Below, one piece after another: positions 1,845 to 15,117 of a DNA stretch of 43,570 bases. The stretch spans positions 1 to 43,570 of the forward strand of contig CALKXH010000010.1 of NCBI GenBank assembly GCA_938005675.1. The letters are read 5' to 3'. The notes beneath the pieces were generated by a model that worked only from the letters and a program-made list of their open reading frames with translations, searched no databases and was not told the DNA's origin. A program made the position numbers and the translations under genes. This DNA comes from an uncultured Anaerolineae bacterium. GTDB lineage: Bacteria > Chloroflexota > Anaerolineae > Aggregatilineales > UBA2796. How positions within the stretch are numbered: the stretch's first letter is position 1; each line of letters begins with the position of its first letter.

Positions 1845-2396
1845 CTACCTGCCCAGCGCGGCGAGCGCCAAACCGATGGCGAGCGCCGTCGGCGCGCTGA
1901 CGAACTCGCCCGCCGCCCAGCGCCGCCTGACCTCGCCGAGCGGCAAGCGGTGGACGCTTATTTCACCGACATCCCCGGAGTCGGCGGGCGCCACGATCTG
2001 CGCGCCGCGCGCCAAAAAGATGTGCGCCCAGCCGCAGCCGCGATTGGCGTCCATCACGTAGCGCCCCAAGAACTGCCACTCAGCCGCCACCGCGCCGCAT
2101 TCCTCGTACAGCTCGCGGGCGGCGGCATCCTGCGCCGATTCGCCCGCCTCAAGGTGACCGGCTGAGAGCTCCAACAGATAGCCATCGACGGCTTGGCGAT
2201 ATTGGCGCACGAAGATCACCTCGTCCGCCTCAGTCAGCGGGAAGGTCACGGCGAAGGGCGGCAGATCGACCTGCAGCCAGTTGGTGATGACGCGCCCGTC
2301 GGGCAGGCAGAAGTCCAGATCGTAGACGCGCGCGAAAGGCGAGCGATCTGCCACGAGGCGCTTATCGAGGCGCTGCCAGCGCTGCTCGTCGCTCAT
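1845..2396 (-). CDS. Nudix hydrolase, ADP-ribose pyrophosphatase-like
   Basis: 183 residues. The complete Nudix box G-x5-E-x7-R-E-x-x-E-E-x-G is present (G-H-L-E-A-G-E then R-E-L-Y-E-E-C-G), so metal binding and diphosphate hydrolysis are expected. The N-terminal strand region and R-Q-Y-R-Q-A-V-D-G-Y-L-L-E-L resemble the ADP-ribose/NDP-sugar pyrophosphatase subgroup (E-x-P-A-G in the classic members; here E-L-S-A-G). It is the second gene of a leftward pair: its ATG overlaps the stop of the MoxR-type ATPase by 4 nt, so translation is probably coupled. Exact substrate not determinable. Confidence 0.85.
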   Translation of the reverse strand: MSDEQRWQRLDKRLVADRSPFARVYDLDFCLPDGRVITNWLQVDLPPFAVTFPLTEADEVIFVRQYRQAVDGYLLELSAGHLEAGESAQDAAARELYEECGAVAAEWQFLGRYVMDANRGCGWAHIFLARGAQIVAPADSGDVGEISVHRLPLGEVRRRWAAGEFVSAPTALAIGLALAALGR

Positions 2397-3367
2397 CCGT
2401 AGCGCCCGCCGCGCGGACGGGTGGGCGGCAAGCCGCGCCCCGTCTGCCCGCTGATGCCGCCGCGCCGCATCAGGTTGCCGCCCTCGCGCCGCGCCCGCTG
2501 CACATCCGATTCGTGCTTGAGCAGGACGGTCAGGGTGTTCTCTAAAGTCTGCTCATCGAGCGAGTCGGCGTTGAGCATGACCAGCGCCTTCGCCCAGTCG
2601 AGGGTCTCCGCCACGCTGGGATGCTTTTTCAAGTCCATCTGGCGCAAATTCTGGACGACGTCGACGACTTGCTGGGCGAGGCGGGCGTTCAGCTGCGGCA
2701 CGCGCATCCGCACGATGTTCAGCTCCTCCTCGTGGTTGGGGTAGTTGATGGAGAGGTACAAGCAGCGCCGCTTGAGCGCCTCAGAGAGCTCGCGGGTGTT
2801 GTTGCTGGTCAGGATGACCATGGGCTGATGCTTGGCGGTGATCGTGCCGAGTTCCGGGATGGAGACTTGGAAGTCGCTCAGCACCTCCAGCAGGAACGCC
2901 TCGAATTCGGCGTCGGAGCGGTCGATCTCGTCGATCAGCAGCAGGGCGGGCTCCGGCGAGATGATGGCATCCAAGAGCGGGCGCGGCAGCAGGAAGCGAT
3001 CCGAGAAGAAGACGTCCTCTTCGGCGGCGAGGCGGTCGGCAGCTTCGGCGAGGCTGACGGCGTCGCGCAGCAGGTCTTGGAGTTTATCGCGCAGCAGCTG
3101 CGTGTAGAGCATCTGCTTGGCGTACTCCCACTCGTAGAGCGCCTTTTTCTCGTCCAAGCCCTCGTAGCACTGCAGGCGGATCAGGCGGCGGTTGGTCGCC
3201 TTCGCCCAGGCTTTGCCCAGCTCGGTCTTGCCGACACCCGCCGGTCCTTCGGAGAGGACGGGCTTGCCCAGTTTCTCCGCCAAGAACAGCACGGTGGCGA
3301 TCTCATCAGAGGCGATGTACTGCTGCTGCCCAAGCGCAGCGATCACCGCACGGGTATCTTCAAACAT
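2393..3367 (-). CDS. MoxR-family AAA+ ATPase
   Basis: 324 residues. Walker A G-P-A-G-V-G-K-T (41-48), Walker B L-L-L-I-D-E-I-D (D146, E147), sensor-like L-T-S-N-N-T-R-E and an arginine-finger-type R-R-C-L-Y. The subgroup looks like the MoxR/NorQ/CbbQ chaperone ATPases, which remodel or activate partner proteins, often with a von Willebrand A partner. No VWA gene is adjacent. The C-terminal tail (about 296-324) is rich in Gly and Arg and probably disordered. The start codon ATG at 3367 is preceded by AGGAGTCC-type ribosome-binding sequence. Co-transcribed with the downstream Nudix gene by 4-nt overlap; client unknown. Confidence 0.85.
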   Translation of the reverse strand: MFEDTRAVIAALGQQQYIASDEIATVLFLAEKLGKPVLSEGPAGVGKTELGKAWAKATNRRLIRLQCYEGLDEKKALYEWEYAKQMLYTQLLRDKLQDLLRDAVSLAEAADRLAAEEDVFFSDRFLLPRPLLDAIISPEPALLLIDEIDRSDAEFEAFLLEVLSDFQVSIPELGTITAKHQPMVILTSNNTRELSEALKRRCLYLSINYPNHEEELNIVRMRVPQLNARLAQQVVDVVQNLRQMDLKKHPSVAETLDWAKALVMLNADSLDEQTLENTLTVLLKHESDVQRARREGGNLMRRGGISGQTGRGLPPTRPRGGRYG

Positions 3368-3568: not shown

Positions 3569-4030
3569 ATGGGCACAATCCACGATGTGGTGGTCAAAAA
3601 ATTGGTGACGCACAGCGACGATCGCGGCTACCTGCGCGAGATTCTGCGCGACGACGATAACCTGCTGCGCCGCTTCGGGCAGATCACCGTCACCAAGACC
3701 TACCCGAACGTGATCAAGGCTTTCCACTGGCATCAGCATCAGGACGACATCTGGTACGTGGCGAGCGGCATGGCGCGCGTGGTCATGTACGACCGCCGCC
3801 CCGACTCGCCCACCTATCGGCAGACGATGGTCGTCTACGCCGGGGAGGATAACCCCGTCTCGATCTTGATCCCTTGCGGGATCGCGCACGGCTATCAGGT
3901 GCTGGGCAATCAGCCGGTGCTGCTCTTCTACACGGTCACGCACAGCTACAACGCGGCGGCGCCGGACGAGTTCCGCATCCCCTTTGACGATCCGGAGATC
4001 GGCTTCGATTGGTCAATCAAGAATCGCTAG
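3569..4030 (+). CDS. RmlC-like cupin, NDP-sugar 3,5-epimerase family
   Basis: 153 residues from the ATG at 3569. A GGGAG sequence lies about 15 nt upstream, and an alternative ATG at 3515 sits inside the -10 element and is rejected. The double-stranded beta-helix signature of dTDP-4-dehydrorhamnose 3,5-epimerase is visible: D-D-R-G-Y-L-R-E, K-A-F-H-W-H-Q-H (catalytic His region, variant of the R-G-L-H motif), D-R-R-P-D-S-P-T, I-P-C-G-I-A-H-G-Y and the C-terminal D-D-P-E-I-G-F-D-W. It is shorter than typical RmlC (about 180 residues). Either sugar epimerisation or another cupin isomerase role is possible. Its last 18 nt overlap the end of the convergent Nudix gene. A nucleotidyltransferase of the same pathway type is at 18.97 kb. 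Confidence 0.75.
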   Translation: MGTIHDVVVKKLVTHSDDRGYLREILRDDDNLLRRFGQITVTKTYPNVIKAFHWHQHQDDIWYVASGMARVVMYDRRPDSPTYRQTMVVYAGEDNPVSILIPCGIAHGYQVLGNQPVLLFYTVTHSYNAAAPDEFRIPFDDPEIGFDWSIKNR

Positions 4031-4498
4031 GGCGGCGAGGGCGCGCCGAACGACCTCAGCGTGGAAAGGCGAGAGCGGCGGCAGCGCCTCCTGCGGGGCG
4101 AACCAGCGATAGTCCAGCAGCTCGCGGCTGAGGCGCACGGGCTGATCGGGCGCGCTCAGGCGGCACAAGTAGCCCACATCGAGGTGATGCCGCCACAAGT
4201 GCGACGGGGCGATGATGAGCGGCTGCAGCACTTCCACGCGCAGGGCGGTCTCTTCGAGCAATTCGCGGCGGACGGTCTGATCGGGCGTCTCGCCGCGGTT
4301 CAGGTTGCCGCCGGGCAAGCCCCACGGCGTCTGGGGATGAAAGAGATGCTCCACGAGCAGCAGCCGCCCCTCCGCATCGAAGACGGCGCCGACTGCGCCG
4401 ACCGTCACACGAGCGTTGAAGGGGCGCAGCAGGCGCTGAGGCAGGTAGATCAGCCACGGCGCGCGCCGCAGCAAGTGGGCGAGTCGGCGCGCGGTCAT
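4013..4498 (-). CDS. Nudix hydrolase
   Basis: 161 residues with a canonical Nudix box G-x5-E-x7-R-E-x-x-E-E-x-x (G-N-L-N-R-G-E then R-R-E-L-L-E-E-T), preceded by W-G-L-P-G. The substrate subgroup cannot be told. The start codon at 4498 shares one base with the stop codon of the UBL-FHA gene (TGATG), so it is the third gene of the leftward EccC-like operon by arrangement. A role in secretion is not evident; it may simply be a passenger. Its 3' end overlaps the convergent epimerase gene. Confidence 0.85.
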   Translation of the reverse strand: MTARRLAHLLRRAPWLIYLPQRLLRPFNARVTVGAVGAVFDAEGRLLLVEHLFHPQTPWGLPGGNLNRGETPDQTVRRELLEETALRVEVLQPLIIAPSHLWRHHLDVGYLCRLSAPDQPVRLSRELLDYRWFAPQEALPPLSPFHAEVVRRALAALAILD

Positions 4499-5196
4499 CA
4501 GTTAGGGTTCGGCTCGATCGGCGGGTTGAAGCTCTGCGGGTTGGACACGCTTTGAGTCAGCCCGCTGCGCAAGCCGAAGGTCAAGGTGATCTGCCCGATG
4601 CGCAGCTTATCGCCTGGGTACATCACGCGCTTATCGCCCACGCGCACCAGCTCGCCATTCAGATAGGCGGGGTTATGTTCGGCGAGGCTCTCGATGTAGA
4701 ACTGCCCGCCCTCCTCGGTGAGGCGAGCGTGATAGCGCGAGACGCTCTTGGCGCCCTCGTAGCCCTCCAAATTGACCGCCAACAGCTCGCGGCTGGCGGG
4801 ATTGCTGTGATCGGGGCGCCCGATGATGGCGGGCTGAAAGTCGATGTTGAAGATATCTCCGCGCGAGTCCTCGCGGAAGTAGGGGCGCTTATTGGTGCTG
4901 AAGAGGACGCGCGAGGCGCTGCCGCGCAAGGCTGTCTCGCGGCGGGGGGCGCGGCGCTCGCGGCTGAAGACCAGCCGAGCGCCCGTCCTGATGCCCTGCT
5001 GCTCGAGGGTCTTTTCAGGATCGAGCAGTTTGCCGCTGCTCTCGATGCGCAGGGCGTAGAGGGCATCCTCAGGCAGGTTGAATTCCTTGAGCGTCTCTTC
5101 GATCAAGGTGCGCACGGGCAGATTCTCGCGCACGGAGGCTTCCTGCTCAGGGTTATCGAATAAATCGGATGAGATAGTCACCACCAGACGAGCCAT
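4498..5196 (-). CDS. Ubiquitin-like (YukD/EsaB-type) plus FHA domain protein, T7SS-associated
   Basis: 232 residues. The ATG at 5196 is chosen because AAAGGA lies 8 nt upstream; a longer reading from 5226 lacks this. Residues 1-80 look like a ubiquitin-like beta-grasp domain: a beta start, L-I-E-E-T-L-K-E-F helix, L-L-D-P-E-K-T-L-E-Q-Q-G-I and G-A-R-L-V-F. This pattern is seen in YukD/EsaB and the N-terminus of EccD. Residues about 120-208 are an FHA domain with G-R (126-127), S-x-x-H in S-R-Y-H (153-156) and the N-x-x-Y-L-N-G loop (175-181), so phosphothreonine binding is plausible. A Gly/Arg linker joins them. It lies 71 nt downstream of the EccC-like gene in the same direction. FHA domains occur in EssC and in other T7SS parts, which supports a secretion role by inference. 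Confidence 0.75.
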   Translation of the reverse strand: MARLVVTISSDLFDNPEQEASVRENLPVRTLIEETLKEFNLPEDALYALRIESSGKLLDPEKTLEQQGIRTGARLVFSRERRAPRRETALRGSASRVLFSTNKRPYFREDSRGDIFNIDFQPAIIGRPDHSNPASRELLAVNLEGYEGAKSVSRYHARLTEEGGQFYIESLAEHNPAYLNGELVRVGDKRVMYPGDKLRIGQITLTFGLRSGLTQSVSNPQSFNPPIEPNPN

Positions 5197-5267: not shown

Positions 5268-8200
5268 TTAATCGCCACTCTGAGGCTTGGCGGCGCCTTC
5301 GGGCGTCGTCGGGACGCCTTGAGCGCCGCTACCGCCGTTGCCGCCGGCTGCTTCGGCGGCGGCGCGTTTGCGCGCTTCCGCCTCCGCCTTGCGCCGATCA
5401 ATCTCCTCTTGGCTGAGCTTGACGGGCGTGGGCTTGGGCGCCACAGTAGCCGCCGCTTCGAGTTCTTTCTCCAGTTCCTCGATGCTCTTTTGGGCGCTCA
5501 CGGCGGCGGTGGCGGAGGCGGCGCGCTCCTGCTCTAGCTTCTTCAAGTCGACGTCGGGCGCTTGAGCGGCGCGACGCGCCAGCTCATCGGCGGTCACGGC
5601 GAGGCTTGCCGCCGCTGCCGCCAGCGAGGCCGCCACGGGCTGCATCGCCGCTTCTTGGCGCAGCTCGGGCACCAGATCGGCGAGCCACTGGGCGCGCGTC
5701 GGATACTTGGCGCAGATGCGCGCCACCCAGCGGTCGAGCGCCTCTTCCATCGTGGCGTCGCCGTCATCTTGCGGCGTGGCGACTTGCATCAGGATGGCGC
5801 GGTTGCTGCGCACGATGTAGCCGCGACCGGGCGGGAATTCCTCCGTGCTGGAGCGCAAGCGCGCGCCCAGCGAGTTCGCCGATTCGCCGCTATCCAAGCC
5901 GAGCGCGAAGCGCGACTCCAGGGCGCGGCGCAGGAAGTCGTCTTGCCCGCGCAGGATGCTGGACGAGCCGCACAGCACGGCGTGGAAGCCATCCGGACCG
6001 TACTTGTTCGCCATGACCGCCAGATCGCTGAGCAGGCTGCCGCGCCCGAAAGCGCTGCCGAAGTCGTCGTAGTTATCGGCGAGGAAGAACACCTCGCGGC
6101 GCGGATGCCCTTGGCGCGCCTCTTCGGGCGTCTCGAACTCGACGCGCAAGTTCGCCACCACTTGCGCCATCTCCTCAGGCGTGGAGACGGTGGCGACCAC
6201 GTGCGGCAAGTCGGCGAGGCTGTGTTTGCTGGTGCGCCCGCCGTAGCGGAAGAAGCGTTGGCGCAAGTCCACCAGCACCAACATGACCTGAGCGGGGTCG
6301 TAGAGGGCGGCGGTTGCCAATGCCCACGTGCGCAGAGTCGTGGTCTTGCCGCTGAGGGGCGGTCCGATGATGACGAAGTGCGGACCGCGCGCCTGCAGGT
6401 CGAAGGCGGCGGGCTCAAGGTTGCTATCCTCGATGCCCAGCAGCGTCTCGACGGCTGCGCCGTGCGGGCGCTCAGGCAGGACGGTGCTGAGCGGGATGAC
6501 CTTGCGCAGGATATCGATGCCGCTCGGACGCGGACGTCCCGCCCAAGCTTTCGCCATCAGCTCGACCAGCTGGGCGAGTTTCTTGGTGTCGTCCAGCTTG
6601 CGAACCTCTTCATCCTCCTTGCTGAGCGAGATCGGGACGGCGATCTGCATCTCCAGCGCCTGCTTGTTGCGCAGGGCGAAGCCGCGGCCAGGGTCTTGTG
6701 GCACGCCCTGCACGCGCCCGATGATGTTCATGTAGTCGGCGGCGTCGTTGAGCTTGAGGGCGAGGCGCTCGGTGAACAGGTTGAAGAGCTTGGTGGTGAA
6801 GACGCCCGATGAGTCTGCGGTGACCACGAAGTGGACGCCGTTGGCGCGCCCGTCGCGGATGACGCTGATCAGATCGGGCAGGAGCGGCTCGTAGTTCTCG
6901 CGGAACTCGGCGAAGTTATCGATCAGGATCAGCATGGCGGGGATGACGCGGTCGGGATTGGCGGCGTTGTAATCGAAGAGGCTATCGGCGCGCGCCTTGC
7001 TGAGGAGGTCGCGGCGGCGCTCGATCTCGCTGGCGGCGCGGCGCAGCAGGCGCTGGATGCGCTCATCCTCGCCGGAGTTGATGGTCGGCGCGCTGACGTG
7101 GGGCAGCTCGTTGAGGACGCTCAAGCCCTTGCCGCCCAAGTCCATGATGTAGATGTTCAGCTCTTCAGGCGAGTGGGTGGCAGCCAGCGCCATCACCAGC
7201 GTGCGCAGCATGAAGGTCTTGCCCATGCCAGAGGCGCCGATGACCACGACGTGCCCTTTGGTCAGATCGAGCTGGAGCGCCATTTGAGCCGCTTCCAGCG
7301 GGTTATCGACCAAGCCGATGGTGGCGCGCATGGCGTCTTTCTTCCAATCGATGCCGCGCCAAGCGCCGCGCCCCTCGCGCCAATCGATCAGGGCGGGGCT
7401 GAGCGGCAAGAGCGGATTGGGCTTGCGCTCGCCCTCAAGGGCAGTCTGATCGAGGGTCAGGCGGGTCGGCAACGGATCGGGATAGGGCTTGGGCTGCGGC
7501 TTGACGTCCTCATTCTCCTCCGCCAAGCGCTTCATGACGGCGGTCAGGATGTTGGAGAGGAACAGCTCATCGGCACTATCTTTATCCTCGCGCAGGTGCT
7601 TGAGGAAGTCCGGCAGCGCGCCGTTGTACGGACCGCCGGCGCGCGCCACTTGCATCAGTTCGAGGTTATCGTTGCCGACCTGCAAGAACGCCCGACCGGG
7701 GATGTTATTGGGCAGGAAGGCGGCGTCGGCGCGTTTGAGCAGCTCTTTGGAGTCGTCGCCGGTCTCCACGCGCAGGCAGATGCGCCACTTGATGTTGGAG
7801 CGCATTTGATCGGTCACCACGCCGGCGGGGCGCTGCGTGGCGAGGATCAGGCAGACGCCCAGCGCGCGTCCCAAGCGCGTGATCGAGTCGAGGCTGCCCT
7901 TGAACTCCGGGTTCTCCTTGACCATCTCGGCGAATTCGTCCACCACCACGAACAGGAAGGGGAACGGCTCGCGGCGCTCGTGCAGATTGCGCTTGCGGTA
8001 ATCGACGATGTGCTTGGTCTGCGTGACGGCGAGCAGGGCGGAGCGCCGATTCATCTCGGCTTTCATGGCGGTGAAGGTGCGCGCGCCGGCCAAACCTTGC
8101 AAGTTGGTGACGATATCGACTGCGTGCGGCAAGCCCTTGAAGGGATCGAAGGCGCTGCCGCCTTTGTAGTCGGCTAGGATGAAGTTGACCACGCTCGGAT

Positions 8201-11200
8201 CGTAGCGCATGGCCAGACCTGCCACCACGGTCAGCAGCAGCTCGGACTTGCCCGAGCCGGTCGTGCCGGCGACCATGCCATGCACGCCGTCGATCTGCTG
8301 ATCGAAGATCAGCGAGCGGACTTTGTTGCCCGTCACCAAGCCGACCGGCGCCTTGAGCCACTCGGCTTTTTCCGGCTTGCGGCTCTCGCGCCACCACTCG
8401 AGGATCGGGAAGTCCATGACCGACTTGTACTCGCGCTTATCGAGCAGCTCGAAGAGCTCTGTCAGCGAGAGCTGGCGCACCAGATCGACGCTCTGCGGCA
8501 CGGGACGCTCGCCCCAAGCGGCTTTCATGCCCTCCACAATGCGCGAGAGCTTCTTCAGGACGTCCAGCCCGTGCTCTGCCTCCGCTTTCGTGACCGTGAT
8601 CGGCTGGGCAACTTGCATCTCCAGCGGCTCGTTCTCCACAGGCACGAAGCCGCGCCCGGGGATATCGGGCAGGTTGGGCATGTTGCGCCCGACGATCATC
8701 GAGTACTCGGTCGAGTCGGTCAGCTTGAAGGCGAGGCGCATGGCGAACATGTTGTAGAGCTTGCTGGGGACTGAGCCGATCTGCTGCGTGGTGACGAGGA
8801 AGTGGATGCCGTTGGCGCGGGCATCGCGCACGATGGCGGTCAGTTCGGGCAGCAGATTCTCGTAGTTCTCGCGGAACTCGGCGAAGTTATCGATCAGCAC
8901 CAAGATGGCGGGCAGCGCCTTATCGGGGTACTGGGTGTTGAAGATCGCCAAATCTTCGGCGCGCGCCTGACTGAGCAAGGCTTTGCGCTGCTCCAGCTCG
9001 TCCGAGAGGCGGCGCAGCAACGCCGAGACGCGGTCGTCCTCCGAGGGGTAGATCGAGCAGGCGACGTGCGGCAACTCCAGCAGCACATCCAGACCCTTGC
9101 CGCCGAAGTCCATCATGTAGATGTGCAGCTCTTTGGGCGAGTGCGTGGCAGCCAGCGCCATCGCCACTGTGCGCAGCAGGACGGTCTTGCCCGTGCCGCT
9201 GGCGCCCACGGCGATCACGTGCCCGCGATTGAAGTTCAGGGTCAGCGGCAGCTGCTCGGCGCGGGCGGGATTGTCGATCAAGCCGACCGCTGCGCGCATC
9301 CCGTTGCGCGCCCAATCGACGCCCGTCCATGCGCCGCGTCCCGCCGCCCAATCGGACATGGCGCGGCTGAGCGGCATGAGCGGGTTATCCTCAAAGTCCT
9401 TTTCAAGGCGCTGCTGATCGAGGGTGAGCAGGCGCGGCAGCGGATCGGGATAGGGCTTTTTCTGCTCCAGCACGTCCGGGTTGGTCTGCAGCATATGGCG
9501 CATCATGTAGGAGAGGACGTCGGTCAGGGCAGGGACATCGCCGCTGTATTTATCCTGCAGATAGTCGGGCAGGGGTCCGCTGTACGGACCGCCGGCGCGC
9601 GCCACCTGCATCAGCTCGATGTTATCGTTGCCGACCTGAATGTAGCCGCGCCCCGGCACGGTGTTGGGCAGGTAGGCGGCGTCTTCGCGCTTGAGCAACT
9701 CGCGCGAGTCGGCGCCGGTCTCCACGCGCAGGCAGACGCGCCACTTCATGTTGGAGCGCATCTGATCGGTCACCACGCCGGCGGGGCGCTGCGTGGCGAG
9801 GATCAGGAACAAGCCCAGCGCGCGCCCCAAGCGCGTGATCGAGTCGAGGTTGCCCTTGAACTCCGGGTTCTCCTTGACCATCTCGGCGAACTCGTCCACG
9901 ATCACGAACAGGAAGGGGAAGGGTTCGCGCGTCTCGTGCAGATTCTTTTGGCGGTACTCCACGATGTGCTTGGTGGAGGTGGCGGCGAGCAGGGCGGAGC
10001 GGCGGTTCATCTCGGCGCGCATGGCGGTGAAGGTGCGCGCGCCCGCCATGCCCTGCAGGTTGGTGACGATATCGACCGCGTGCGGCAATGCCTCCACCGG
10101 CGTGAAGGCGCTGCCGCCTTTGTAGTCGGCTAGGATGAAGTTGACCACGCTGGGATCGTAGCGCATCGCGACGCCCGCCACCAGCGTGAGCAGCAGCTCG
10201 GACTTGCCCGAACCGGTCGTGCCGGCGACCATGCCATGCACGCCATCGACGTTCTGATCGAAGACGATGGAGCGGACTTTGTTGCCCGTCACCAAGCCGA
10301 TGGGCGCTTTGATCCACTCAGCTTTGCTGGCTTTGCGGCTCTCGCGCCACCACTCGAGGATCGGGAAGTCCATGACGGTTTTGTACTCGCGCTTATCGAG
10401 CAGCTCGAAGAGCTCCATCAGCGAGAGCGCCTTGACCAAGTCGACGCTCTGTGGGCGCGGACGCTCGCCCCAGGCTTTGTTCATCCGCTCCACCAGCAGC
10501 GCCAATTTCTTGGTGTTATCCAAGCCCGCCTGCTCATCCTCGACGGTCAGGCTGATGGGCAGGGCGATCTGCATTTCGAGGGCTTGTCCGTCGTGCTGGA
10601 TGAAGCCGCGCCCGCCGATCTCCGGCAGCTGCGAGCCGACGCGCCCGACCACGCCCTGATACTCGCTGACGTCGGGCAGGCGGAAGGTCAGGCGCTCGGT
10701 GATCATGTTGAACATCTTGTTGGGGATGGCGTTGGGCTGCTGCGAGGTGAAGATGAAGTACACGCCGTTGGCGCGCCCGTCGCGCACGTAGGTGGTCAGT
10801 TCGGGCAGCAGCGCCTCGTACGACTCGCGCAGCTCCATGAAGTTATCGATCACCACCAGCATGGCGGGGACGGGCTTGTGCGGATGGGCGACGTTGTATT
10901 CGGCGATGTTATCGGTGCGGGTCTGGCTGAGCAACGCCTTGCGCTGTTCCAGCTCGTCCTGAATGCGGCGCATGATGGCGGTGACGCGCTCATCTTGGCT
11001 GGGCAGGGCGTAAGAGGCGACGTGCGGCAAGTCGCGCACCACGTCCAAGCCCTTGCCGCCGAAGTCGAGGATGTAGATGTGCAGCTCGGCGGGCGAGTGG
11101 GTGGCTGCCAGCGAGGTGATCAAGGTGCGCAGCAGGAAGGTCTTGCCCCAGCCGCTGCCGCCGAAGACGGCGACATGCCCGCGATTGAAGTCGAGGATGA

Positions 11201-13811
11201 GCGGCAGCTGCTCGGCGTTGCCCGGGTTATCGATCAAGCCGATGCGGGCGCGCATGGCGCGTTCGCGCCAGTCGATTGGGTTGCGCCAATCGGGCTCATC
11301 CTCTTCCATCCAGTCGATCACGGCGCCGTTGAGCGGCAGATTCGGGTTGGGCTTGATGTCGCCGGGCAGGCGCTCCATATCCAGCGAGAGCTTGACGGGC
11401 AGCGGGTCGGGCCACGGCTTCTTCTGCGGCACGACGTCATCGTTTTCGGCGGCGAGCTGCGCCATGCGCGCGATCAGCAGGTCGGAGATGGTCGGCACTT
11501 CGGCGGCGGCGCTGCGCGCTGCGACGGCGGCGACATCGACCATGCCGGACAGATTCGACCGCGAGCGCCAGATGACGGGCGGCTCAGCCGTCTCTTGGTC
11601 GCCGGTGAAGGGCGCGCCCGCCCGCGCCAGCTGCAGCAGCTCGACGTTCTCGTTGCCGACCTGCAAGTAGCCGCGTCCGGGGATGTTGTTGGGCAGGAAG
11701 GCGGCGTCGGAGCGCTTGAGCAGCTCGCGGGAGTCTTCAGCCGTCTCCACGCGCAGGCAGATGCGCCACTTGATGTTGGAGCGCATCTGATCGGTCACCA
11801 CGCCGGCGGGTCGTTGCGTGGCGAGGATCAGGCTGACGCCCAGCGCGCGTCCCAAGCGCGTGATCGAGTCGAGGTAGCCCTTGAAATCGGGGTTCTCCTT
11901 GACCATCTCGGCGAACTCGTCCACGATGATGAAGAGGAAGGGGAACGGCTCGCGCGTCTCGTGCAGATTTTTCTGGCGGTAGTGGACGATGTGCTTGGTG
12001 TTGGTATCCGCCAGCATTTTGCTGCGGCGGTTCATCTCGGCTTTGGTGGCGGTGAAGGTGCGCACGCCCGCCAAGCCGTTCAAGCTGCTGACCACGTCCA
12101 CGGCGTGCGGCAGGGGCTTGAAGGGATCGAAGGCGGTGCCGCCTTTGTAGTCTGCCAGCACGAAGTTGACCACGCTGGGATCGTAGCGCATCGCCAAGCC
12201 GACCACGATGGTGATCAGCAGCTCGGATTTGCCCGAACCGGTCGTGCCGGCGATCATGCCGTGAACGCCGTCAATATCGGCGGCGTAGGTCAGCGAGCGG
12301 ACTTTGTTGCCCGCCATCAAGCCGATGGGCACGCGCAGCCACTCAGCTTTTTCGGGCTTGCGGCTTTCGCGCCACCATTGCAGCAGCGGGAAGGCGTTGG
12401 GGCGGTCGTAGTTTTTATTATCGAGGATGCTGAAGAGTTCTAGCAGGTTGACGGAGGTGGCGACGTCGGCGCCGAAGGTGGCGCGCACCATCTTAGAAGC
12501 CAGCTTGCGGGCGAAGCGGTCGTCGGCGTTGCGCTCGCTGATGGCATCGGCGATGCCGTCGTAGCGCATCGAGTTCAGCCCGATCTCGGCGTAGCGGAAC
12601 ATGGGCGTCTCATCGACGACGTCCAGCTCGATGATGGCGCGGCATTCGCTGGGGATTTGATCGCGCTCGGGCACCACGAAGATGACCGCCGCGCCCAATT
12701 GCGCCCCGCGCGTGAGCAGGAGCGCCACGGCTGCCTCGGTGCTGAGGCTGTGCAGGGGCGAGTCGGCGGCTTGGGAGAGCGCATCGACGACCACGACCAT
12801 GAAGGGCAAGGTCACATCGCCGGCGTCTTCATCTTCGGCGCGCAGGGCGCGGCGTTGCAGCTCATTTTGGAGCAAATCCCAGATGCGGCGGGTCTTGCGC
12901 GGCTCAAAGGCGAGCAGATCGCCCTTGCCGGAGTCGTTGCGGCTGGTGTTGCAGTGCGGCAGCCAGCGCGCCCAATCCCAATCTTTTTGGCGGTCGGCGG
13001 CGCCGATGACGTACAGGCGCGTATCGTTGGGCGAGTGGAAAGCCGTGTAGCTGACCAGCATAGCGCGCACGAAATCGCTGGTGCGGGCGGTATCGGCGCC
13101 CGCCACGCCGATGGCATAGCGCCCGACCGACGGAATCTTGATGCCCAGCGCCGTGCCTTTGCTATCCAACGAGCTGGGATCGTCCTCGCCCAAGCGCGGG
13201 CGCAAGGTGATGGTGATCGGGATGTTGTGGACGATCAGCGAGTCTTCTGCTAGGCGCTTGGCGTCGGGCATTTGAGGGGCGGTGGCATCCTGCGTATCGA
13301 TGCGGTAGACGACCGTCGAGGGCATTGAGCCCATGCCGAGGCGGATGGCGCCGAAGTCATTATCGTCGACGCGGCGCTCCCACAGCCGCGATTCGTCGGC
13401 GCCCTCGCCGCCGCCGACCATCGCCATGATCGTATCCATATCCGGGTTGTTGTGGATGTAGAAGGCGCGCTGCTTATCGTGCGATGCCATCATCTCGCGG
13501 CGCATCTCGATCAGCAGGCGGGCGTATGCCTCGCGGCGCTCTTTATCGATGCGCCGATCGCGCAGGTACTGGAAAACTGCCAGCACGCTGGTCGCCATGA
13601 CCGAGATCGCCATCGGCAAGACGAACAGCGCATTGCCGCCGCGCCCACCGCTGACCAGGACGTAGCCCAGAATGGTGATCAGCGGGATGGCGACCGTGAT
13701 GAGCAACTGCTGGGCGGAGGTGTTGGAGGGCGTGGGCGGTTGTGGGATATCGATCTCGCCAGAGGGCAGCTCTGGCTGAATACGGGGCGGACGGTTCACA
13801 TACTCAAGCAT
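5268..13811 (-). CDS. eccC: Giant EccC-like FtsK/SpoIIIE ATPase with seven P-loop domains (T7SS)
   Basis: 2847 residues; the ATG has GGGAGA 8 nt upstream. N-terminus: two membrane segments (about 35-54 and 61-80), then a stalk and a degenerate nucleotide-binding-like domain (about 225-410), as in EccC/EssC. Seven Walker A motifs follow: GTTGSGKS at 522, 1197 and 1849; GGSGWGKT 884; GASGTGKT 1536; GASGMGKT 2192; GPPLSGKT 2483. The three GTTGSGKS domains have Walker B with catalytic Glu (V-D-E at 630-632, 1305-1307, 1957-1959). The other four have D-N instead (989, 1641, 2298, 2579). So the order is D1-D2 three times, then D3; ordinary EccC/EssC carries one D1-D2-D3 set in about 1300-1500 residues. 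The C-terminus (2720-2847) is an Ala/Lys/Glu-rich coiled region. The family powers export of WXG100-type proteins; substrates are not in the window. Confidence 0.9.
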   Translation of the reverse strand: MLEYVNRPPRIQPELPSGEIDIPQPPTPSNTSAQQLLITVAIPLITILGYVLVSGGRGGNALFVLPMAISVMATSVLAVFQYLRDRRIDKERREAYARLLIEMRREMMASHDKQRAFYIHNNPDMDTIMAMVGGGEGADESRLWERRVDDNDFGAIRLGMGSMPSTVVYRIDTQDATAPQMPDAKRLAEDSLIVHNIPITITLRPRLGEDDPSSLDSKGTALGIKIPSVGRYAIGVAGADTARTSDFVRAMLVSYTAFHSPNDTRLYVIGAADRQKDWDWARWLPHCNTSRNDSGKGDLLAFEPRKTRRIWDLLQNELQRRALRAEDEDAGDVTLPFMVVVVDALSQAADSPLHSLSTEAAVALLLTRGAQLGAAVIFVVPERDQIPSECRAIIELDVVDETPMFRYAEIGLNSMRYDGIADAISERNADDRFARKLASKMVRATFGADVATSVNLLELFSILDNKNYDRPNAFPLLQWWRESRKPEKAEWLRVPIGLMAGNKVRSLTYAADIDGVHGMIAGTTGSGKSELLITIVVGLAMRYDPSVVNFVLADYKGGTAFDPFKPLPHAVDVVSSLNGLAGVRTFTATKAEMNRRSKMLADTNTKHIVHYRQKNLHETREPFPFLFIIVDEFAEMVKENPDFKGYLDSITRLGRALGVSLILATQRPAGVVTDQMRSNIKWRICLRVETAEDSRELLKRSDAAFLPNNIPGRGYLQVGNENVELLQLARAGAPFTGDQETAEPPVIWRSRSNLSGMVDVAAVAARSAAAEVPTISDLLIARMAQLAAENDDVVPQKKPWPDPLPVKLSLDMERLPGDIKPNPNLPLNGAVIDWMEEDEPDWRNPIDWRERAMRARIGLIDNPGNAEQLPLILDFNRGHVAVFGGSGWGKTFLLRTLITSLAATHSPAELHIYILDFGGKGLDVVRDLPHVASYALPSQDERVTAIMRRIQDELEQRKALLSQTRTDNIAEYNVAHPHKPVPAMLVVIDNFMELRESYEALLPELTTYVRDGRANGVYFIFTSQQPNAIPNKMFNMITERLTFRLPDVSEYQGVVGRVGSQLPEIGGRGFIQHDGQALEMQIALPISLTVEDEQAGLDNTKKLALLVERMNKAWGERPRPQSVDLVKALSLMELFELLDKREYKTVMDFPILEWWRESRKASKAEWIKAPIGLVTGNKVRSIVFDQNVDGVHGMVAGTTGSGKSELLLTLVAGVAMRYDPSVVNFILADYKGGSAFTPVEALPHAVDIVTNLQGMAGARTFTAMRAEMNRRSALLAATSTKHIVEYRQKNLHETREPFPFLFVIVDEFAEMVKENPEFKGNLDSITRLGRALGLFLILATQRPAGVVTDQMRSNMKWRVCLRVETGADSRELLKREDAAYLPNTVPGRGYIQVGNDNIELMQVARAGGPYSGPLPDYLQDKYSGDVPALTDVLSYMMRHMLQTNPDVLEQKKPYPDPLPRLLTLDQQRLEKDFEDNPLMPLSRAMSDWAAGRGAWTGVDWARNGMRAAVGLIDNPARAEQLPLTLNFNRGHVIAVGASGTGKTVLLRTVAMALAATHSPKELHIYMMDFGGKGLDVLLELPHVACSIYPSEDDRVSALLRRLSDELEQRKALLSQARAEDLAIFNTQYPDKALPAILVLIDNFAEFRENYENLLPELTAIVRDARANGIHFLVTTQQIGSVPSKLYNMFAMRLAFKLTDSTEYSMIVGRNMPNLPDIPGRGFVPVENEPLEMQVAQPITVTKAEAEHGLDVLKKLSRIVEGMKAAWGERPVPQSVDLVRQLSLTELFELLDKREYKSVMDFPILEWWRESRKPEKAEWLKAPVGLVTGNKVRSLIFDQQIDGVHGMVAGTTGSGKSELLLTVVAGLAMRYDPSVVNFILADYKGGSAFDPFKGLPHAVDIVTNLQGLAGARTFTAMKAEMNRRSALLAVTQTKHIVDYRKRNLHERREPFPFLFVVVDEFAEMVKENPEFKGSLDSITRLGRALGVCLILATQRPAGVVTDQMRSNIKWRICLRVETGDDSKELLKRADAAFLPNNIPGRAFLQVGNDNLELMQVARAGGPYNGALPDFLKHLREDKDSADELFLSNILTAVMKRLAEENEDVKPQPKPYPDPLPTRLTLDQTALEGERKPNPLLPLSPALIDWREGRGAWRGIDWKKDAMRATIGLVDNPLEAAQMALQLDLTKGHVVVIGASGMGKTFMLRTLVMALAATHSPEELNIYIMDLGGKGLSVLNELPHVSAPTINSGEDERIQRLLRRAASEIERRRDLLSKARADSLFDYNAANPDRVIPAMLILIDNFAEFRENYEPLLPDLISVIRDGRANGVHFVVTADSSGVFTTKLFNLFTERLALKLNDAADYMNIIGRVQGVPQDPGRGFALRNKQALEMQIAVPISLSKEDEEVRKLDDTKKLAQLVELMAKAWAGRPRPSGIDILRKVIPLSTVLPERPHGAAVETLLGIEDSNLEPAAFDLQARGPHFVIIGPPLSGKTTTLRTWALATAALYDPAQVMLVLVDLRQRFFRYGGRTSKHSLADLPHVVATVSTPEEMAQVVANLRVEFETPEEARQGHPRREVFFLADNYDDFGSAFGRGSLLSDLAVMANKYGPDGFHAVLCGSSSILRGQDDFLRRALESRFALGLDSGESANSLGARLRSSTEEFPPGRGYIVRSNRAILMQVATPQDDGDATMEEALDRWVARICAKYPTRAQWLADLVPELRQEAAMQPVAASLAAAAASLAVTADELARRAAQAPDVDLKKLEQERAASATAAVSAQKSIEELEKELEAAATVAPKPTPVKLSQEEIDRRKAEAEARKRAAAEAAGGNGGSGAQGVPTTPEGAAKPQSGD
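6504..8474 (-). repeat. EccC-like tandem repeat unit C (D1-D2)
   Basis: Residues about 1780-2436, opening with L-T-E-L-F-E-L-L-D-K-R-E-Y-K. It is followed by a single, diverged D3 domain (about 2437-2690), which has no partner copies. Confidence 0.8.
8475..10427 (-). repeat. EccC-like tandem repeat unit B (D1-D2)
   Basis: Residues about 1129-1779, opening with L-M-E-L-F-E-L-L-D-K-R-E-Y-K. The D1 Walker A motifs of units B and C are 652 residues apart, and the DNA match at 9764 is 1956 nt from that at 7808. Units B and C are the most alike, suggesting the more recent duplication. Confidence 0.8.
10428..12449 (-). repeat. EccC-like tandem repeat unit A (D1-D2)
   Basis: Residues about 455-1128. 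It opens with L-L-E-L-F-S-I-L-D-N-K-N-Y. The D1 Walker A of units A and B are 675 residues apart. The DNA copy gatcggtcaccacgccggcg occurs at 11789 here and recurs at 9764 and 7808. Confidence 0.8.
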
Positions 13812-14013: not shown

Positions 14014-15117
14014 ATGAAACGCTACTGTCCTAGAAGTGAGACGATCACGCCGATGTTCAGCGTGTGGGGGTCGGCGCGCATCTCGGAGGCGGGCGAGCTC
14101 TCGGTGATCTTCGATTACGGCGATTTCTTGGGCGATATCGAGATCACGCGCCTGATCCGCGTCATGAAGACGGGCGCGCTCTACGAGGCGCGGCGGCGCA
14201 TCAAGAACAAGCCTAAGCCGATCTTGATCAAGGTTGCCCACAACGGCTGCGAGGAGCTGCTCAAGCGCGAAGCCATCCTGATGGCGAAGCTGAACGAGTC
14301 AGGCGGGCATCCGATGCTGCCCGTCTTGCAGCCGCCCTACCTAGTGGGCGATGCTAACGTCAAGCAGCGCCCCTACGGCAAGGTCGCTTTCGGCAACGAG
14401 ATGAAGTATTACATCGTCTACGCGCACACTGAGGGCGAGTTCCTGCGCGATGCGCTCTTGAAGAACCCGCAGCCGTGGTACCTGCACGCCGCCTGGCTGA
14501 CCATCAGCGTCGCCGCCGCCGTCGCTTTCATTCACGGCAAGGCGCAACACTTGGTGCTGAATCTGAGCCCGGATACGATCCTGATCCGCTACGACCGCGA
14601 CGGCATCCCGCGCCCGCTGCTGATGGACTTGAGCCTCGCCGCGCCGCCCACCGACATCAACTTCGATGAGCTAGAGCGCTACAGCATGGCGGCTTACATC
14701 GCCCCGGAGCTGCTGATCGACCGCGAAAAAGGGCAGTACGGCGCCCAGACCGACGTCTATGGCTTGGGCGTGCTGCTCTACGAGATGCTCAAAGGGCGCC
14801 CGCCTTATATCTACCGCCTGCGCCGCCCTGAGGACGTGCGCCAAGACGTGCGCCTGCTGCCCATCCCGCCGCTGGATCGCACCGATCTGAGCAGCGATAT
14901 CAACATGATCGTGACTCAGGCGATTGATAAATCGCCCATGCGCCGTCAGAAAGATGTGCGCACCTTCGCTAAGGAGCTGGTCGCCAAATTTGGCGAGGTG
15001 CCGCCTGAGCGCAAGGGACGGCGCATCCCGCCGCAGTACCTCGCGGCAGGGGCGGCGGTGGTGCTGCTGATCGTCGGCTGGCTGCTCTTCGTGGCGACCT
15101 TGCAAGCCGGCGCCTAG
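14014..15117 (+). CDS. Membrane-anchored pseudokinase, EssB/YukC-like candidate
   Basis: 367 residues from the ATG at 14014, with GGTGAGGA just upstream. The protein-kinase fold is recognisable: beta3 Lys (I-L-I-K73), helix-C Glu86, A-P-E (230-232) and D-V-Y-G-L-G (247-252). Catalytic residues are lost: the H-R-D-x-K-P-x-N loop reads V-L-N-L-S-P-D-T (181-188), so Asp becomes Asn183, Lys becomes Ser185 and Asn becomes Thr188. DFG reads D-L-S (205-207). Phosphotransfer is therefore unlikely, though nucleotide binding is possible. A single membrane helix (about 343-362) leaves only about five residues beyond it. In Firmicutes T7SS, EssB/YukC is a membrane pseudokinase that works with EssC; the divergent position next to the EccC-like gene suggests the same here. 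EssB's extracytoplasmic domain is absent. Alternative: an unrelated regulatory pseudokinase. Confidence 0.8.
   Translation: MKRYCPRSETITPMFSVWGSARISEAGELSVIFDYGDFLGDIEITRLIRVMKTGALYEARRRIKNKPKPILIKVAHNGCEELLKREAILMAKLNESGGHPMLPVLQPPYLVGDANVKQRPYGKVAFGNEMKYYIVYAHTEGEFLRDALLKNPQPWYLHAAWLTISVAAAVAFIHGKAQHLVLNLSPDTILIRYDRDGIPRPLLMDLSLAAPPTDINFDELERYSMAAYIAPELLIDREKGQYGAQTDVYGLGVLLYEMLKGRPPYIYRLRRPEDVRQDVRLLPIPPLDRTDLSSDINMIVTQAIDKSPMRRQKDVRTFAKELVAKFGEVPPERKGRRIPPQYLAAGAAVVLLIVGWLLFVATLQAGA

Follow-up and report, generated by a model that had tools for sequence, protein, structure and literature searches.

The ATPases of type VII secretion systems (T7SS), EccC and EssC, are known as hexamers whose chains carry domains D0 to D3 (PMC10765036), and stacked three-ring models have been published for EssC and EccC (PMC4925161, PMC6954902). 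The substrate-signal domain of known EccC is D3 (PMC6954902), and an asparagine has been described in the Walker B motif of EssC D2, giving a motif of the Asp-Asn type (PMC4925161). An ATPase of this family with a multiplied motor was analysed in contig CALKXH010000010.1 of an uncultured Anaerolineae bacterium (phylum Chloroflexota); the window, i.e. the whole stretch of DNA that was analysed, comprises 43,570 nucleotides. The protein bears on how ATP hydrolysis by EccC/EssC moves folded WXG100 substrates, on D1 ring formation and on the control of D1 by D2.

An EccC/EssC-type ATPase with three D1-D2 units

The ATPase is encoded by a single uninterrupted open reading frame (5268..13811, minus strand; 2847 amino acids counted from the ATG), which ruled out that the extra units belong to separate genes. 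An EccC-like identity had been proposed and was borne out by matches to family models. Pfam FtsK_SpoIIIE matched seven stretches of the protein (E 1e-180), and the NCBIfam models for EssC (TIGR03928; 1713 bits vs a cut-off of 778), EccCa and EccCb (TIGR03924 and TIGR03925; 1111 and 888 bits vs cut-offs of 509 and 347, respectively) all matched with bit totals that are inflated in part by the repeats, the single-stretch EccCa match in the genome amounting to 370 bits, i.e. less than the whole-protein cut-off. The N-terminus begins just ahead of the transmembrane (TM) segment and N-terminal FHA domains are absent; residues 6-754 aligned with YukB (9qks), starting past the YukB FHA domains. Hydrophobic stretches judged by eye placed a TM segment pair at approximately residues 34-84 (13560..13712, minus strand). 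A degenerate ATPase domain without a Walker A motif (DUF/D0; 12492..13124, minus strand) was recognised by eye and by alignment, with residues 247-723 aligning with the DUF and D1 of EccC5 (7b9f).

Seven Walker A motifs were present, at residues 522, 884, 1197, 1536, 1849, 2192 and 2483 (ATG numbering), and the domains that they mark all lie on the minus strand. The three D1 domains, assigned by motifs, share the P-loop GTTGSGKS and the Walker B motif VDEFAEM (D1_1, 11547..12473, P-loop at residue 522; D1_2, 9522..10439, residue 1197; D1_3, 7572..8483, residue 1849). The D2 domains have good P-loops of differing sequence and an Asp-Asn Walker B motif, IDNF, in each case (D2_1, 10482..11324, GGSGWGKT at residue 884; D2_2, 8517..9374, GASGTGKT at residue 1536; D2_3, 6537..7424, GASGMGKT at residue 2192). 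The chain ends in D3 (5772..6524; GPPLSGKT at residue 2483, Walker B ADNY). The original prediction of seven P-loops in the order TM, degenerate domain, (D1-D2)x3, D3 was thus confirmed, as were its repeat periods, with DNA repeats spaced 1956 and 2025 nt apart, and its estimate of about twice the usual EccC/EssC length, one-unit Chloroflexota EccC proteins having about 1400-1570 amino acids. With eight ATPase-like domains per chain (D0, three D1, three D2 and D3) rather than the standard four (D0-D3), the protein was classed as a variant of the EccC/EssC family and not as a standard member.

Repeated sequences raise the question of false expansion during assembly or annotation. The DNA repeats of the window gene are 85-89% identical over 300 nt and the genome is an assembly of 144 contigs, both of which would favour such an error. 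The same chain, with ortholog-specific units, was nevertheless present in many independent assemblies. Two congeners (G001 and G004) carried open frames of 2854-2855 amino acids with the units in the same order, a third (G003) carried the three-unit chain in fragments, and further copies were found in G006 (5 contigs), in a genome of another genus (G010) and in a 3-contig genome (G610). As the units also differ from one another (by 15-28% in D1 and 43-48% in D2), the expansion of the window gene is not an assembly error, and the chance of an artefact is practically negligible.

Within the window gene, the D1 units were 72-85% identical in protein sequence and the D2 units 52-57%. Positional counterparts in the congeners were 94-98% (D1) and 86-93% (D2) identical, far above the similarity to the other units of their own gene. 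Four-fold sites of orthologous D1 units matched at only 0.53-0.59 between congeners, and the high protein identity of D1 despite this divergence indicates that all units are under purifying selection.

The proposal that one chain carries three catalytically complete D1 domains was upheld by the motifs. A Walker A and an Asp-Glu Walker B motif were present in all three D1 domains of all 31 three-unit chains identified (see below), a retention that is partly built in since D1 was recognised through its Walker B motif; what was effectively tested is whether chains with two D2-D1 junctions in a single full frame ever had fewer than three D1 domains, and none did. Columns K528/S529, D631/E632, R584 and Q666 were at least 97% conserved in all three D1 units of the three-unit chains. 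R584 (window numbering) aligns with R543, which we take to be the arginine finger of Thermomonospora curvata EccC. A P-loop was not recognised in D2_1 of two chains (L045 and L048) or in D3 of three others (L088, L089 and L091). One chain counted among the 31 (G424, L099) has a frame of 2482 amino acids that ends before a recognisable D3.

An excess of synonymous-site similarity was observed between the D1 units of the window gene (z 5.6-7.5) and was stronger than in D2. Four-fold sites of these D1 units matched at 0.76-0.83 as compared to a shuffled codon baseline of 0.57-0.59, which ruled out codon bias as the full cause of the D1 DNA identity. As an explanation of the 85-89% identity at the DNA level, recent gene conversion was partly rejected, conserved protein sequence and codon use accounting for much of this identity. 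Limited intragenic gene conversion among the D1 units is likely on these sequence comparisons.

Copy number and duplication history in Chloroflexota

The distribution of the repeat was surveyed with a D2-to-D1 junction model, to which a chain with a single unit gives no continuous match; the survey took in 154 genomes from the order, 396 from the class and 400 from the phylum. Three-unit chains were found 31 times, in three clades of Chloroflexota: clade A, the family of the window genome; clade B, family f11, with Anaerolineales, Thermoflexales and others (L039-L053); and clade C, comprising six families within the class (f22, f27, f38, f42, f45 and f52) and three outside it (f67, f73 and f83; L085-L107). 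Two-unit chains were seen twice, once complete (G007, 2208 amino acids) and once broken by a frameshift (G057), and the chain of G064 leaves its contig after two D1 domains. In the two chains with split frames, the break was due to a frameshift where D2_1 ends (G057, L105) and to an in-frame stop within D2_1 (L051), respectively. Sister genera (G005, G008 and G009) and other families have one-unit chains of this kind. Chloroflexota homologues therefore carry one, two or three D1-D2 units, and no chain with four or more was detected in the junction-model survey of the order, class and phylum genomes. The ATPase loci inspected outside Chloroflexota, a weak sample, had one D1 unit, and the peptide-pattern scan of contigs misses clade C and so is blind to possible expansions elsewhere. 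Among the plasmid matches listed, the query was split in two pieces with <40% identity. The architecture is real but not peculiar to the window gene: it is phylum-wide, with several apparent origins.

Expansion by duplication within one gene had been anticipated and was supported, but the units are not simply three copies of D1-D2. In all three clades, the D1 tree separated D1_1 from (D1_2,D1_3) and the D2 tree separated D2_3 from (D2_1,D2_2), the D2 split in clade A being weakly resolved. By these unit trees, D1_1 and D2_3 are the outer domains of older type, and the inner pairs D2_1-D1_2 and D2_2-D1_3 are mutual duplicates, so the block that was duplicated last runs D2-D1. The simplest history compatible with the trees would be D1-D2 to D1-[D2-D1]-D2 to D1-[D2-D1]-[D2-D1]-D2, repeated in each clade.

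A tree of the single-copy N-terminus placed A, B and C in separate clades (100/100 support) with one-unit chains between them, G057 and G064 forming a fourth group. AU tests on D1 rejected one common origin of all later units (p = 4.9e-34) and a duplication shared by A and B (p = 8.9e-4). From these phylogenies, the three-unit form seems to have evolved on three or more occasions in Chloroflexota, via a two-unit intermediate and stopping at three each time. An alternative would be a single ancestral triplication, followed by gene conversion within lineages and by contraction to one unit in some of them. A single gain with two losses could account for the three state changes on the N-terminal tree, the D1 units show excess synonymous similarity inside a gene, and in clade A D2_2 groups across genera while D1_2 and D1_3 group within genera. 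However, the unit trees of D1 and of D2 both keep the three clades apart, and the AU tests on D1 rejected a shared origin. The one-unit D1 domains lie at the base of clade A and not with D1_1, as contraction would predict. The units of clade C are mostly position-specific orthologs across families inside and outside the class, indicating that they were not homogenised by conversion. A single triplication is accordingly doubtful, although intragenic gene conversion, which is likely to a limited extent, could exaggerate the separation of origins. The architecture together with its parallel expansion is considered highly probable, and the repeated gain of three units, never four, points to selection for exactly three.

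Arrangement of the multiplied motor

The explanation that we favour is of a genuine T7SS ATPase in which the motor has been multiplied within one chain as a stacked D1-D2 relay, and a probability of roughly 0.55 is assigned to this explanation as a whole. The chains would assemble as a hexamer, as in known EccC/EssC, with the D1-D2 modules stacked serially beneath one membrane pore on the path taken by the substrate. WXG100-tagged cargo would be received by D3 and pulled in relay by three D1 rings with 18 D1 sites in all, a number that had been envisaged for a hexamer, and each D2 would act as a nucleotide-bound clamp and as a regulator of the neighbouring D1 domains. The P-loop spacing from D2 to the next D1 is fixed at 312-313 amino acids in clade A, and in a comparison of the C-terminal ends of the D2 domains the D2-to-D1 connector resembled the D2-to-D3 connector in sequence. 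An AF2 model of D1_1-D2_1-D1_2 was superposed on D1-D2-D3 of T. curvata EccC (4nh0) over 818 residues (Z 38.9); with a pTM of only 0.62 and an rmsd of 6.4, the relative placement of its domains is unsure. In this overlay D1_2 occupied the place of D3, an arrangement that AF2 may reproduce from 4nh0 in its training. The stacked geometry itself, judged from sequence and model, is given about even odds. Stacking alone does not account for the absence of chains with more than three units.

That absence is better matched if the D1-D2 units of one chain lie side by side, so that two chains supply the six D1 and six D2 domains of a layer. Each chain would then fill three of the six D1 positions of a covalently linked ring, and the motor would be the equivalent, among secretion ATPases, of dynein and other fused-ring motors. 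The allowed copy numbers would be the divisors of six (1, 2, 3 and 6); the chains found had 1, 2 or 3 units and in no case 4 or 5, and three units were reached repeatedly and then fixed. One, two and three are, however, also the first integers. The connector between the C-terminal helix of D2 and the next D1 is short, the helices being some 17 residues apart in the model, and by a rough estimate this short, D2-D3-like connector suits a path down the tube better than a climb past two layers. Each chain has one TM/DUF set, so that a dimer would have two sets in place of the six of known T7SS (PMC10765036). A ring made up of fewer chains, which had been put forward as an alternative, is rather improbable; connector length, the single TM/DUF set and the AF2 model speak for serial stacking instead, without being decisive.

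The extra D1-D2 pairs could also serve mainly in substrate docking and regulation, with a single ring active at once and the repeats providing places where several WXG100 substrates bind. A conserved WXG100 quartet and larger WXG100-headed proteins belong to these systems (see below), the ATPase domains of EccC beyond D0 have been described as flexible (PMC10765036), and the D2 domains are more diverged than D1. Three intact catalytic sites would be superfluous in docking arms, and the full catalytic motifs in every D1 of the 31 chains, as against the occasional loss of a D2 or D3 P-loop, therefore count against this role. One-unit chains of the same T7SS type likewise have WXG100 arrays (e.g. 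L029). A docking role is on balance unlikely, though it retains some plausibility. A three-engine version was built repeatedly while close relatives keep one or two engines with the same partners, providing a natural experiment on motor copy number. The apparent convergence of lineages on exactly three units, passing through two and in no case reaching four, leads to specific predictions on ring geometry.

Neighbouring genes and comparison with known systems

Two conserved partners adjoin the ATPase gene. Directly downstream, a YukD domain (EsaB-like ubiquitin fold) is fused to an FHA domain in a protein of 232 amino acids (4498..5196, minus strand). In T7SSb the FHA domain sits on EssC; here it sits on the EsaB-like YukD protein, apparently in several Chloroflexota families. 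Upstream of the ATPase, a divergently transcribed pseudokinase with a C-terminal TM helix and a replaced HRD Asp is encoded at 14053..15117 on the plus strand, and its place next to the ATPase gene is conserved in one-unit relatives as well as in all three clades. Its structure model was a confident kinase fold closest to PknA/PknB; it had no Pfam match to YukC, and EssB was absent among the best 50 structure matches. The window also contains, beside the T7SS core, a NUDIX gene (4013-4498; Pfam), a NUDIX-like gene (1845-2396; by eye) and a MoxR-type AAA gene (2393-3367).

A run of four WXG100-like genes lies directly upstream of the pseudokinase in clades B and C. In the window genome the quartet is on another contig (C1, 28852-30184; 99, 99, 107 and 97 amino acids) and is orthologous to that of clades B and C, with best matches in the order W1-W4. 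Nine Pfam WXG100 matches were obtained in this genome (E below 2e-6). WXG100 domains also occurred there in longer frames of 331-432 amino acids (C72:7508, C46:22583, C59:4609 and C12:21479), which are candidate T7SS substrates, and a stand-alone second gene of the YukD family was seen (C66:24481-24684, frame of about 111 amino acids). The only other FtsK-type match in the genome (C109) is apparently FtsK, making the window ATPase the sole EccC found in it. The congener G004 has, besides its three-unit ATPase, a distant EccC with one unit, encoded next to a WXG100-like gene (C31, L023 4608-8891), and probably carries two T7SS types. Downstream of the ATPase in four clade C loci (L085, L092, L096 and L088) are WXG100-headed proteins of 298-404 amino acids followed, directly or nearly so, by a protein of 260-270 amino acids; the pair may represent a substrate and its chaperone or immunity protein. 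The pseudokinase, EccC, YukD-FHA and WXG100 quartet together define a Chloroflexota T7SS.

The closest relatives are the one-unit Chloroflexota EccC proteins (e.g. G008, G009 and G013), which have one D1-D2 unit, and a one-unit locus (L029) shares the pseudokinase, YukD-FHA and WXG100 neighbours with the three-unit systems. The EccC proteins of T7SSa (T. curvata EccC, 4nh0; Mycobacterium tuberculosis EccC5) are the closest solved structures by sequence and fold, with the same order of TM, DUF, D1, D2 and D3, but they have one D1-D2 pair, and EccB, EccD, EccE and MycP were not noticed among the neighbours of the window ATPase. EssC of T7SSb (Staphylococcus aureus EssC, Bacillus subtilis YukB) is alike in its TM pair, DUF/D0, D1, Asp-Asn D2 and D3, and its partners likewise include WXG100 proteins, a YukD/EsaB fold and a pseudokinase. 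It differs in carrying D1-D2 once and not three times and in its N-terminal FHA domains, which the window ATPase lacks; the window pseudokinase is almost without an extracellular domain, and EssA and EsaA were not noticed beside the gene.

The subtypes T7SSc to T7SSj (Garrett et al. 2024, PMC11217815) likewise have FHA-less or otherwise varied EssC and new sets of partners. The survey concerns Gram-positive bacteria; Chloroflexi are unmentioned in its main text, and neither D1-D2 repeats nor a system with the Chloroflexota partner set was found in the parts consulted. In the open literature searched, no description of repeated D1-D2 units in EccC was found. The sequences have been public for years, and the number of domains may well be annotated in a database already. 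The families to which the ATPase and its partners belong were known before, and the repeated D1-D2 architecture is new relative to the literature searched, in which it was not found described.
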